Source: Cymodocea nodosa (taxonomy: Eukaryota > Streptophyta > Magnoliopsida > Alismatales > Cymodoceaceae). From it: a DNA stretch of 64,000 nucleotides. Numbering within the stretch: position 1 is the stretch's first letter; each line of letters opens with the position of its first letter. Location of the stretch: positions 20,219,501 to 20,283,500 of the forward strand of contig CM072335.1 in NCBI GenBank assembly GCA_036874045.1, written 5' to 3'. Positions 2,447-11,642 of this stretch are shown in pieces. A program made the position numbers and the translations under genes. Under the pieces are notes generated by a model that had not been told where the DNA came from, did not search any database, and saw only the letters and a program-made list of their open reading frames with translations.

Positions 2447-2464
2447 TGGCGCCGTTGCCGGGGA
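2447..2464 (+). other. Primer binding site (tRNA-Asp) of AthF-1
   Basis: TGGCGCCGTTGCCGGGGA matches the complement of the 3' end of plant tRNA-Asp, the primer typical of Athila elements. It lies 7 bases after the LTR end. A GAATT-rich microrepeat (2463-2512) follows directly. Confidence 0.9.
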
Positions 2465-2578
2465 ATTGAATTGAATTGAATAGAATAGAATTGAATTGAA
2501 TTGAATAGATATAGGCAACTATTACAACTGTTTCATTTTAATAGCCAGATTTATGTGTTTTCTTCTATAATTGAGAAT

Positions 2579-3309
2579 ATGGCATATGCTTATGCTCAAA
2601 GATTTGTGAAACCTGTAATTAGCATATGTGAATTCTGCAATTCTAAAGAACACGACATTTTTGACTGTTTGAAATTGAGACGTTTACAGATGGTTAGATC
2701 CCATGAACAACAAATGAATTATCCTTAGTATAATAGATCTGAGTATGAGAATCCTATAGTTTACCCAACTAATGGTTAGTATAGAATGTGTAATAAGTTG
2801 AGAGACATTGAAGTTTGGGATAGGTATGACAGACTAGAGTGTAGTATAGAGCAAAATCTGGACAAACTAGAATACTTTATGTGTCTGCAACAAGAAGTCA
2901 ACCAATTAAATTATAAGAAAGCATATTTAGAACCTAAAAAGGATATAATTTATGAAACTAAAGAAATCATAATGAAAATTGATCAAAAATTGAATGCAAT
3001 GAAATTGGATGATCTAGAAAGAAAATTAAAAGCATTAGATGAATATACAATGAAAATACAAGTTATGCAATAGGACAATGAAAATTATAATGTTATAAAC
3101 CTGCATAATTTGCAAAATACACAACCAACAGAAAATATTAATGCAAGAGAATTTAAAGAATGCACTTTAAAACTAAAAACAATTGAAGATCATAATCATG
3201 AAAATGATATACAAAAACATCATGAGAGTAACGAAAATCTGGAAGATGTATGTGTAACATTAAGATCTGGAACGATATACCACCAAGAACTCAAAATGAA
3301 AATGATATG
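2579..3309 (+). pseudogene. gag: Zinc-knuckle (nucleocapsid-like) Gag fragment of AthF-1
   Basis: The ATG at 2579 follows a leader (TAATTGAGAAT) conserved in AthF-4. Near residues 20-33 there is a CX2CX4HX4C zinc knuckle (CEFCNSKEHDIFDC). A long charged, coiled-coil-prone region follows, then VTLRSGT, the motif that normally marks the Gag-protease junction in Athila elements. The capsid domain that should precede the knuckle is absent here and is found 8 kb downstream. The reading frame is broken by TAG codons near 2727, 2777 and 3071, and by a one-base shift near 3275 relative to AthF-4. Its likely role in an active copy is RNA binding and packaging. Whether the N-terminus truly begins here, or is joined by splicing to another exon, is unknown. 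Confidence 0.72.
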
Positions 3310-4475
3310 AAGGTGGATAAGAGTAAAAATCAAAATGATAATGAAAATGTAATAGCTGAAAATCTAGAAATCACTAAAGAACAATCTGAATTTGCTAATG
3401 AAGCTAAAAATGATCAAACTAATCAATTGAAAGAAAAAGAATCTTTGAAATCACAATCTTTAGTACCCTATCCTGAAAGATTACAACAAACAATACCTGA
3501 AAAATAAGAAAAAATCAGAGAAATTTTTGAAAAAGTACAAGTTAACATTCCTTTATTAGATCTATTGTAGAAAATGCCACCTTGTGCTAAATTTTTGAAG
3601 GATTGGTGTACTAAGAAAAGAGAGTGAAAAGTTCTAAGAAAGATCTTTTTAGCTGAGCAAAGTGGTTCCCTATTTCTGTCACAAATTCCTAAAAAGTTAT
3701 CTGATCCTGGAATCCCTGTTATATCATGCACTATAGGAAATACCATTCTAGAAAGAACCTTAATAGACTTAGGTGCAGGTATAAATGTTATGCCAAGTGA
3801 TATATTTGCATCCTTAGGATTAGAAGGCTTAACTCCTACTAGTACAGTTATTCAATTAGCTGATAGAAGTATAAGATACCCTAGAGGAAAAATAGAGGAT
3901 GTCTTAATTAAAATCAAAAACTTTATATATCCTATTGATATTGTAATTTTGGATTCCCAACAAATTAAGCATAAAAATAGTGATACATCTTTAATTTTGG
4001 GAAGGCCATTTTTAGCAACATTAGGGGCTGTTATAAATTGTAAAACTAGAGTAATGAAGTTAGCATATGGTAATGAGGATACTCAATTAAATATTTTCAA
4101 ACCAAAAAGGTTTGAGGAGTTAGAAATGTCCTTACATACCAAAGACTTTTTAGAGGATGAAGGAGATATGTTAGATGATGTGATTCAAGAAGAATTAAAT
4201 AGGCAAATCAATTCTGAAATTTTAGAGGAAAGTGAAAGCATAAATATAGAAGGAGATATGGAAGAAATTAATTTAGAAAATGATATGTTCAATTAGGAGC
4301 TCTAGCTTCTGATGGGCAATATTTAGAATTAAAACCTTTACCTCCTGAATTAACCTATATATTTCTGGAAGATAAACGAACTTGTCCAATCATTATTGCT
4401 TCAGATTTAAAAGAGGATCAAATAGCTAAATTAAAAGATGTAGTAAAAAGTTATAAAGAAGCAATAGGATGGACT
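3310..4475 (+). pseudogene. pol: Aspartic protease region and linker of AthF-1 Pol
   Basis: The linker contains VNIPLLD and AKFLKDWCTKKR, conserved ahead of Athila proteases. The retropepsin core is at about 3720-4060, with active-site motif LIDLGAGINVMP (D-L-G-A in place of D-S/T-G) and a downstream ILGRPFLAT flap/helix motif. It would cleave the Gag and Pol polyproteins. A TAA near 3505, a TAG near 3568 and a TGA near 3627 interrupt the linker. A frameshift near 4290 separates it from the segment ELKPLPPELTYIFLE that leads into RT. AthF-4 has the matching region at 49990-50796. Confidence 0.85.
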
Positions 4476-5460
4476 ATGACTGATATAAAAAGGTTAAGTT
4501 CAACTTTATGCTGTCACCACATATATTTAGAAGAAAATGCTAAACTTGTTAGAATTCCTGAGCAGAGATTAAATCCAAACCTTAAAGAAGTAGTCAGGAA
4601 GGAAATAGTTAAATGGTTAGATAATGACATAATTTATCCGATTTCTGATAGCTCGTGGGTTAGTCCAATCCATGTAGTTCCTAAGAAATCAGGATTAACA
4701 GTTATTAGGAATGAAAGTCAAGACTTGATACCTATTAGAATTCAATCAGGTTGGAGAGTATGTATAGACTATAAAAAGCTGGATGCTGTAACTAGGAAAG
4801 ATCATTTTCCCTTACCTTTTATAGATCAAATGCTAGAAAGATTAGCAGGGCAAAAATATTTTTGTTTCCTAGACGGGTATTCAGGGTATAATCAAATTCC
4901 AGTAGCATTAGAGGATCAAGAGAAAACAACTTTCACCTGTCCTAATGGAACTTATACTTTTAAGAGAATGCCATTCAGATTATGCAATGCGCCAGCTACC
5001 TTTCAAAGGTGTATGCAAGACATATTTACTAGAATGACTGAAGATTTTTTAGAAATATTTATGGATGATTTTACTGTATATGGCAATTATATGAAGTATG
5101 TTTAAAAAATTTAGACTTAATATTAAAATGCTGTGTGGAAAAAAATCTGGTTTTAAAATGGGAAAAATGTCACTTTATGGTAAAACAAGGAATAGTCTTA
5201 GGGTATGTTGTTTCTAAGAAAGGGTTGGAAGTAGATAAAGCTAAAATAGAAGTAATTTTTAATCTACTAGAACCTAAATCAGTAAAAGATATTAGATCAT
5301 TTCTAGGACATGCTGGTTTTTATAGAAGATTTATTAAAGACTTTAGCAAGATAGCTAGACCTTTAACTAATCTATTAAAAGATGTTCCATTTAACTTTGA
5401 TAAAAATTGTAAGGAATCATTTTTCAGACTTAAGACTAGCTTAATTTCAACTCCTATAAT
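4476..5460 (+). pseudogene. pol: Reverse transcriptase of AthF-1
   Basis: Ty3/gypsy RT copies element RNA into cDNA in the cytoplasmic particle. Visible motifs are WVSPIHVVPKK, WRVCIDYKKLD, FLDGYSGYNQIPV (first catalytic Asp), RMPFRLCNAPATFQRCM and FMDDF (the catalytic pair), then QGIVLGYVVSKKGLEVDKAK and the FLGHAGFYRRFI thumb. The catalytic Asp residues are retained. A single-base loss near 5088 shifts the frame between the palm and the thumb; AthF-4 shows the unshifted sequence. The Gly normally in PFGLCNAP has become Arg. Inactive as it stands. Confidence 0.92.
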
Positions 5461-5870
5461 TCAAGCACCTGATTGGAGCCATCCATTTGAATTAATGTGC
5501 GATGCATTTGATTTTGCTGTAGGAGCAGTGTTGGGACAGAAGATAGAAAAATCTCCTAGAGTGATTCATTATGCAAGCAAAACCTTAAATGATGCTCAAG
5601 TTAATTACACAACTACTGAAAAAGAATTATTAGCTGTTATGTTTGCCTTAGAAAAGTTTAGATCATATCTGATTGGAGCTAAAGTAATAGTATACACGGA
5701 TCATTCAGCTCTAAAACATCTAATAAAGAAAAAAGAAACTAAACCTAGATTGATCCGATGGATATTATTATTGCAAGAATTTGATCTAGAAATTAAAGAT
5801 AAAAAAGGTTGTGAGAATGTAGTAGCAGATCATTTATCAAGATTACAAATAGAAAAATCAAATATTGAAA
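5461..5870 (+). pseudogene. pol: RNase H domain of AthF-1
   Basis: This Ty3/gypsy RNase H degrades the RNA strand during cDNA synthesis. The acidic residues are visible in CDAFDFAVGAV (D), TTTEKELLAV (E), VYTDHSALKHL (D) and VADHLSRL (D). The frame is open through this domain and continues from the RT thumb into the integrase N-terminus within the open stretch 5135-6190. It is one of the best preserved parts of the element. Confidence 0.9.
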
Positions 5871-10760: not shown

Positions 10761-10773
10761 TATATATATAAAA
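10761..10773 (+). promoter_or_regulatory. Internal TATA box ahead of capsid gag (AthF-1)
   Basis: TATATATATAAAA lies about 330 bp before the capsid ATG and 160 bp after the palindrome array. The same box is at 14817-14829 (AthF-2) and 35024-35036 on the minus strand (AthF-3), with TATAAATA at 56980-56987 (AthF-4). Conservation in four copies supports a real internal promoter. Confidence 0.6.
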
Positions 10774-10902
10774 CAGAATGTTATTTACGAGTTACCAGCA
10801 CTTTTAAAAGAAAGGAGAATGCGTTGGAGGACTTGGAAGGAGAAGCAGCTGATTCAACTTCATCCGACAACAAATATTTATTGAATGGAAAGCTTCAGAC
10901 TA

Positions 10903-11003
10903 GTATGTAATTAATCTTCTGCTATTTATTTATAAGTGCATGGACCCGCTCTCTAAGCACTAAACGATTAGTAAGAACACCTACCTAGGAATTTTCATTG
11001 TAG
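10903..11003 (+). other. Candidate leader intron of capsid gag (AthF-1)
   Basis: A GTATGTAATTAATC donor-like sequence and a TTTTCATTGTAG acceptor-like sequence bound 101 bases between the TATA box and the capsid ATG. The donor is conserved at 14959, 34893 (minus) and 57122. The AthF-3 acceptor is the canonical TTCATTGCAG. The upstream exon holds only short upstream ORFs, so splicing would shorten the leader and would not add coding sequence. Inferred only. Confidence 0.35.
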
Positions 11004-11087
11004 AGGAGTACTGAAAAAAATTTTGAACTAAACTTTAACGAAATTCTTTGAGGTGTAGCTAACCTTTCTTTAAAAGAGAACGTAGAA

Positions 11088-11642
11088 ATGGCTGCTCCAG
11101 TAGAAAAACCATTAGGAGAGATTCTGTATCCTGAATTAGTTGATGAACCTTCTTATATTTGATTGCCAAACTTTGAGGGAGATAGGTTTGAAATGAAATC
11201 TAATTATAGTAGTCAATTGCCACATTTTTATGGATTAGAAAGAGAGGATGCCTATTATTTCCTTAGAGAATTTAATGAAGTTTGTCAAATGATGAAAATG
11301 CCGAACATGAGTATAGATGTTATTAAACTTAGATATATCCTTTTTTCTTTAAAAGACACAGCTAAGAGATGGTTATATACTCTATCGCTTGATTCAATTT
11401 CTACATGGACTGAATTTTGCTTTGTTTTTCTGGAAAAATATCATCCAACACATCAAACGATTAAAAAGAAGAAAGAAATATTAATGTGTAGCCAAAAATA
11501 GGGTGAATCATTCTGGAAATATTTTGAAAGATTTACTAACTCAATGTCCACATCATGCAATGAGTAAAGCACAATTAATAGGTATAATTTATGAAGGCAT
11601 AGATGTTTCAACAAAATCTTTATTAGAATCTACTTGTCAAAA
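11088..11642 (+). pseudogene. gag: Truncated capsid gag of AthF-1
   Basis: The ATG at 11088 gives MAAPVEKPLGEILYPEL, followed by the retrotransposon gag (capsid) domain: LPHFYGLEREDAYYFLREFNE and DTAKRWLYTLS. A TGA near 11160 replaces the CGA seen in AthF-2, and TAG at 11499 replaces a Gln codon. After the TAG a deletion removes a short stretch (FKDLL). The reading ends at about 11642, where the sequence jumps into LTR DNA at a short AATG homology. The C-terminal half, including the WRNHPNLSW region, is missing. It lies 3' of integrase, which is not the normal gag position. Confidence 0.8.

Follow-up and report, generated by a model that had tools for sequence, protein, structure and literature searches.

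Within a stretch of 64,000 nucleotides of Cymodocea nodosa (C1:20219501-20283500 of an assembly of 374.6 Mb and 28 contigs; hereafter the window), copies of the retrotransposon family AthF were found to carry a zinc knuckle 5' of pol and the capsid 3' of integrase (IN). With a probability of roughly 0.7, these elements belong to an Athila-related Ty3/Gypsy lineage, in which the main Gag is displaced behind integrase and Gag and Pol are made separately. The spread of this lineage into at least five families while it was mobile is supported by structure, trees, target site duplications (TSDs) and, in part, by selection. The gene order had already been proposed in an initial annotation of the window and was borne out by the copy AthF-1a, where the primer binding site (PBS, TGGCGCCGTTGCCGGGGA) at 2447 is followed by the knuckle at 2627, the end of IN at 7222 and a Retrotrans_gag domain at 11163-11501 (Pfam, E 7.9e-7).

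The anatomy of the window was determined from self-comparison, open reading frames (ORFs) and Pfam (Table 1). AthF-1a, which spans 253-23441 in total and has broken reading frames, comprises in this order a long terminal repeat (LTR), the PBS, a knuckle-first ORF, protease (PR), reverse transcriptase (RT), RNase H (RH), IN, a block termed ORFx, the capsid and the 3' LTR. Its 5' frame begins with MAYAYAQRF and contains a CCHC knuckle (CEFCNSKEHDIFDC, CX2CX4HX4C) followed by the motifs TLRSG and PYPERL, all of which were recognized by eye and by regular expression on the translation; Pfam gave no zinc-knuckle match in this region. Since the knuckle lies 180 nt downstream of the PBS start, there is no room for a capsid ahead of it. 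The C-terminal part of IN (6668-7222) was assigned by similarity and has no Pfam match. The Met heading the capsid similarity at 11088 is located about 3.9 kb beyond the integrase stop, as initially annotated. A capsid is indeed present within 2447-11642, but the capsid query of 390 residues was matched there over only about 220 (tblastn). Similarly, a WRNHPNLSW-containing Gag without a knuckle does occur in AthF, whereas its sites lie outside this segment, at 16001 (AthF-1b), in AthF-2 and at 58164 (AthF-4). AthF-1 and AthF-4 had been described as sharing one order, and AthF-4 was collinear with AthF-1 in the self-comparison (49386-53408, then 53866-60176).

In the whole genome, the AthF capsid query yielded 5781 candidate places and the protease query 6004, of which 150 each were scored (all at least 87% and 91% identical, respectively). 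Ten capsid places with flanks served as a sample, drawn at roughly every seventh row between row ~5 and row 68 of the 150 scored. Two of them (L017/18, L025/26) showed the whole AthF order unbroken and with nearly equal spacing. At L009/10, L019/20 and L021/22, RT-RH-IN was found upstream and ORFx-capsid downstream, with other parts absent or interrupted, and at L013/14, L027/28 and L023/24 the LTRs, IN remnants, capsid and F-box were retained. L015/16 comprised a PR upstream, with RT to IN lost, and L011/12 was rearranged, with a capsid close downstream of a PBS and no PR match. Several of these loci were nested. A capsid between the PBS and PR of one element was observed in none of the ten, and the unit ended with a polypurine tract (PPT) and the 3' LTR downstream of Gag. 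Matching TSDs were identified by eye at L019/20 (CCTAT) and L027/28 (ACCAG), while L013/14 matched in four of five bases; the TSD-matched copies with a capsid block are thus AthF-1a, AthF-1b, L019/20 and L027/28. For four sampled copies, LTR divergence (Kimura two-parameter) amounted to 0.024-0.049, measured in two cases on partial LTRs; for the window copies it was 0.070-0.077, based on partial LTRs and for AthF-1b on 228 nt only. The initial annotation had regarded this order as the layout of a mobile ancestor. This view is upheld by the order in the sampled copies, by the TSD-bounded copies and by the succession of IN and Gag in four other families; neither a complete Gag upstream of pol (10 sampled of the 150 scored places) nor a capsid-less element with matching TSDs was found among the sampled AthF copies.

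Two further observations concern the sampled copies. L013, L027 and L024 showed a common deletion junction, at which gagC-PR-RT-RH was removed while the knuckle region and part of IN were kept, as were capsid and F-box where seen. They presumably represent a pol-less AthF subfamily copied in trans; an interpretation as spliced retrocopies was discarded, because the shared junction is not GT-AG and splicing is therefore unproven. Furthermore, the capsid codon after ILMCSQK was TAG in three window copies (11499, 15551, 57733) and Q in AthF-2; among the ten sampled copies, five had TAG or TAA and five had CAG or CAA. This stop perhaps reflects a methylation hotspot, or may have been borne by mobile copies.

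As a control for the pairing, independent lists of capsid and PR matches were compared on the same strand within 15 kb. For AthF, 10 of 150 capsid matches had a PR within this distance, which was located upstream in all ten cases (six at 7.3-7.5 kb), and no opposite-strand pairs occurred. For the list of AthB, AthC and AthD, 34 of 137 capsid matches were paired, 33 with the PR upstream (26 at 3.8-4.3 kb) and one at -9.2 kb; in two pairs, capsid and PR were on opposite strands. With shifted lists, the two comparisons yielded on average 1.8 and 0.9 pairs. Chance is excluded, since other places in the genome repeat the order with similar spacing.

Proteins of conventional order were used as additional queries, considering the best-scored candidates only (52 of 12551 for P0010 and 75 of 8491 for P0022). 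The Apium Gag-PR protein P0010 gave 53 matches, of which 13 fell on the Gag side and 40 on the PR side, with none spanning both. Twelve Gag-side matches stopped at residue 439, directly past PNPK (429-438), and the starts of the PR-side matches lay within 426-524, in five cases at 426-427, around SLRSG (453). Five of 12 AthE-type Gag matches were free of internal stops. The sole conventional Gag-then-PR locus among the P0010 matches was C14:10303406-10306129 on the minus strand, in one frame with stops. Its detection indicates that the method is able to see the conventional order, and that the genome contains at least one such copy. With the conventional Populus protein P0022, none of the 75 matches reached the knuckle (residue 9) or WRNHPN (62); the lowest start was 136, and 27 of the 75 started within 175-200, beside TLRSG (188).

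The eight best Pfam capsid loci of the genome belong to families other than AthF, to which they are 50-57% identical in the N-terminal half of the capsid and 52-73% in IN. In all eight, the capsid match begins 419-457 nt past the end of the integrase match. The succession of IN and Gag was also found in three AthD loci and one AthE locus, which places Gag 3' of integrase in 12 of 12 loci and in four diverged Athila-like families (AthB to AthE) besides AthF. The gap between both matches amounted to 403-471 nt in 10 of the 12 (1959 nt in L032, 147 nt in L033), so that the 3.9-kb interval described initially holds for AthF but is specific to it. In 11 of the 12 loci, stops were present in all three frames between IN and capsid. 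At L033:1078-3828 (AthD), the end of IN and the spacer are lost, and pol and capsid form one frame of 917 aa.

Upstream of three of the eight loci, a knuckle-first ORF, PR, RT, RH and IN were detected, and no capsid match was found ahead of PR in these three stretches. The PBS TGGCGCCGTTGCCGGGGA was present at L029:3230, with a near-match at L030:904, and was not found in L031. One AthD copy (C8) likewise showed a knuckle-first 5' end; altogether, the 5' ends of four families comprise a CCHC knuckle and no capsid. The 3' Gags of AthB to AthE possess a conventional Gag N-terminus, as can be seen from MKSWERGADNRLIRIE in AthE compared to MWRRVSGRLVRIE in P0009, and those of AthB, AthC and AthD stop shortly after an NPR motif. 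AthD and most AthB loci kept the WRNHPN region and the knuckle, the latter being absent from AthC and AthF. Gag is therefore divided around pol as initially annotated, but the cut does not lie at the knuckle: what is found behind integrase is a displaced Gag.

In the Gag tree the displaced Gags cluster together, and the same holds true for their proteases in the PR tree. Both trees included other plant proteins and were midpoint-rooted for drawing only; the Gag tree comprised 14 proteins labelled 'conv', four of which (P0001, P0003, P0006, P0008) were so labelled without a known gene order, and the PR tree comprised those 56 of 128 retrieved proteins that were pattern-positive for both PR and a Gag motif. 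The relocation would most simply have occurred once, in a common ancestor. The ratio of nonsynonymous to synonymous substitution rates (dN/dS) was 0.06-0.09 for the AthC Gag, which reveals clear purifying selection, and gave no clear constraint for the Gags of AthB and AthD. In AthC (L001, L003-L006), the synonymous divergence of Gag (0.78) was about threefold that of integrase (0.27), pointing to a possible exchange of Gag between subfamilies. No close relative was found in the protein database for the Gag of AthB (8 matches, best identity 53%) or AthD (9 matches, best 43%). Among the 128 plant proteins, no knuckle-first protein was recognized by eye, with the knuckle and LRSG patterns occurring jointly in only part of them; the order was accordingly assigned to no other species. 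A Ty3 capsid was not among the fold-search matches listed, and the fold search was not used as evidence. Pfam gave no second RNase H in the window or in the pol of L031, although a divergent copy could escape.

Under the favoured reading of a displaced Gag, the main Gag (from its initiator Met through the capsid, sometimes a knuckle, and WRNHPN to PNPR) would have been relocated from before protease to behind integrase. A C-terminal bit of Gag, from TLRSG onward, would have remained attached to protease and pol, preceded by a short N-terminus that bears a CCHC knuckle of its own, and the lineage would then have diversified into at least five families during transposition. The full-length RNA would first be translated into nucleocapsid-PR-RT-RH-IN, while Gag would originate from a separate message, perhaps spliced over the T-rich spacer that separates Gag from integrase. 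Pol, unfused to Gag, may enter the particle via its own knuckle on the genomic RNA, comparable to foamy virus Pol. A separate expression of the capsid would fit the stops that lie between IN and Gag in 11 of the 12 loci, and the 3' Gag frame has its own Met. Six spacers of AthB, AthC and AthD are T-rich (0.41-0.47 compared to 0.27-0.30 in coding regions) and contain acceptor-like strings; this T-richness is absent from the shortened L033 spacer and from the AthF intervals. Such spacers only suggest splicing, and an internal promoter is equally possible. Even odds are given to the wider proposal of an old and successful lineage of LTR retrotransposons with pol first and gag second, in which Pol carries its own nucleocapsid knuckle, separate messages replace frameshift or fusion, Pol is packaged through RNA, and the Gag of two families has lost its knuckle, leaving nucleic-acid binding to Pol alone.

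The same order could also have arisen in chimeras that lost their 5' capsid, gained a spare Gag behind integrase as a passenger and are copied by the proteins of conventional Athila elements. One conventional locus does exist in the genome, reading frames are broken in AthF copies and a stop interrupts the capsid, and the PR-RT-RH-less derivative common to three loci shows that copying in trans happens; the lack of clear constraint on the Gags of AthB and AthD points in the same direction, as do the non-autonomous and recombinant Athila families of Arabidopsis, described in the available part of PMC2410132. Nonetheless, this origin is considered unlikely, since the order was retained in five diverged families and the single conventional locus is opposed by 12 other Gag-side and 39 other PR-side matches of P0010 that are unjoined. 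Moreover, the AthC Gag is under purifying selection, the AthD Gag frames of L034 (466 aa) and L032 (465 aa) are stop-free, and the same applies to 5 of the 12 AthE-type matches.

Alternatively, the capsid past integrase might open a following element of a tandem or nested array, whose LTR was lost. For AthF, the copies bounded by TSDs refute this, and PPT and 3' LTR close the unit after Gag in this family. The recurrence of the unit throughout the genome at similar spacing, the absence of a PR match behind Gag in all nine tails of ~1-3 kb, and a stretch beyond the AthD Gag that is 70% like the AthB LTR end leave this explanation hardly any probability, even though nesting is frequent (AthF-1b in AthF-1a, several sampled loci) and the two fetched ends of the C8 AthD copy have no LTR in common. 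Gag-derived restriction factors such as Fv1 exist, and the 3' Gags of AthF and AthC lack a knuckle. These observations would be compatible with a second Gag in another role, for instance as decoy or restriction-like capsid, the working Gag being supplied from elsewhere. This is quite improbable, because no other capsid precedes PR in any of the four families examined at the 5' end, and because the 3' Gags have a conventional N-terminus in AthB to AthE, together with knuckle and WRNHPN in AthD and most of AthB.

Table 1. Features of the AthF copies in the window (positions in the window; E values from Pfam).
Feature	Position	Strand	Remarks
AthF-1a 5' TSD CTTGA	248..252	+	pairs with 23442-23446
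AthF-1a 5' LTR	253..2439	+	first letters TGTTTAG, last AAACA
AthF-1a primer binding site TGGCGCCGTTGCCGGGGA	2447..2464	+	
AthF-1a knuckle-first 5' region	2579..3627	+	ATG at 2579; frames broken; capsid absent
AthF-1a protease	3628..4296	+	PF13650, E 8.4e-5, 23.6 bits, just under the cut-off of 24.3
AthF-1a reverse transcriptase	4284..5105	+	PF00078, E 9.7e-21
AthF-1a RNase H	5069..6190	+	PF17917, E 1.4e-36
AthF-1a integrase	6359..7222	+	rve PF00665, E 7.7e-13 in 6359-6667
AthF-1a ORFx block	8151..9983	+	weak Transposase_32 match under the Pfam cut-off
AthF-1a capsid-coding fragment	11088..11643	+	PF03732; tblastn; 3' end cut; in-frame TAG
AthF-1a 3' LTR, left part	11653..11973	+	start lost; last bases are ACACG, the left TSD of AthF-1b
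AthF-1b, nested	11974..21666	+	5' LTR fragment, ORFx, Gag, F-box, PPT, 3' LTR; without pol
AthF-1b Gag frame	15041..16213	+	capsid, WRNHPNLSW at 16001, without knuckle; in-frame TAG at 15551
AthF-1b F-box ORF	16487..17449	+	PF00646, E 4.3e-9
AthF-1b polypurine tract GGTATGGGGGAAG	19402..19414	+	
AthF-1b 3' LTR	19415..21666	+	
AthF-1a 3' LTR, remainder	21672..23441	+	
AthF-1a 3' TSD CTTGA	23442..23446	+	
AthF-2, partial	29068..35339	-	Gag 34943-33531, F-box 33371-32250, LTR
AthF-4 with nested insertions	36096..63443	+	LTR part; PR to IN 50131-53408; Gag 57223-58379
AthF-4, continued	58685-59635; 61235-63443	+	F-box; 3' LTR

AthF-1b is inserted in the 3' LTR of AthF-1a, and its TSD ACACG is found at 11969-11973 and 21667-21671. 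Due to this nesting, the segments 8142-11644 and 12202-15704, which were 91% identical in the self-comparison, give the appearance of a 4060-bp tandem duplication, which was ruled out since AthF-1b has its own TSD. ORFx, located between integrase and Gag in AthF, showed only a weak similarity to Transposase_32; its copies (8151-9983, 12253-13983, ~54388-55900) had a dN/dS of 0.26, lower than that of PR, RT and IN. An F-box ORF, whole or partial, was present 3' of Gag in the AthF window copies and in 10 of 10 sampled loci, in L011/12 behind a second capsid copy. A host-type gene thus travels in AthF, for which selection as cargo is not claimed, as its dN/dS of 0.51 is close to the noncoding baseline. 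Elements that look copia-type from their ORFs by eye occur between or inside the AthF copies (24536-28539, 44697-48338), and the repeats 23477-24235 and 35339-36097 may be the LTRs of one such element.

Few features of LTR retrotransposons and retroviruses are as constant as the position of Gag ahead of Pol, and the Metaviridae profile of the International Committee on Taxonomy of Viruses lists gag, pol and env, with env alone downstream of integrase (PMC7879559, available part). Text searches, which most subscription papers lie beyond the reach of, gave no report of a Gag behind integrase. A survey of plant LTR elements discarded all elements with unexpected domain order as likely mispredictions, according to the part available (PMC6317226), by which such lineages could have been removed unseen. 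With Athila, Calypso and Diaspora (OTA non-chromoviruses, Metaviridae), the elements described here share a PBS of tRNA-Asp type, the order PR-RT-RH-IN, long LTRs, a 5-bp TSD, a homologous Gag with CCHC knuckle and WRNHPNFSW and often an extra ORF. The PBS was found beside the 5' LTR, and its probable type follows from the tRNA-Asp PBS of Diaspora in the accessible text of PMC1142308; TG...CA LTRs, a PPT and 5-bp TSDs (CTTGA, ACACG, ACCAG, CCTAT) were observed in AthF only. According to the same text, Gag and Pol of Athila, Calypso and Diaspora form a single ORF with Gag first (PMC1142308). Correspondingly, Gag and PR are joined in one protein in Apium and Vitis, and Populus proteins comprise knuckle-WRNHPN-TLRSG-PR. 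In contrast, the elements reported here lack a gag (capsid, nucleocapsid) upstream of protease, have a separate Gag ORF 3' of integrase and open the pol side with a knuckle of its own. For Arabidopsis Athila, the accessible part of PMC2410132 reports elements with Gag alone or with Gag and Env, recombination among distant families and purifying selection on Gag; the recombination swaps domains, and a Gag behind integrase is not described in that part.

If true, a large group of families in reverse order would mean that the Gag-Pol arrangement is dispensable, and would offer a natural test of enzyme packaging without a Gag-Pol fusion. In foamy viruses, gag lies 5' of pol and pol is spliced. The Pol of these viruses (Spumaretrovirinae) is made apart from Gag and packaged via the genomic RNA, as stated in the available part of PMC7828637. 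Compared to them, pol comes first and Gag downstream in the lineage described here, so that the likeness would be one of mechanism only, with the separate expression of Pol suggested by gene order and stops.

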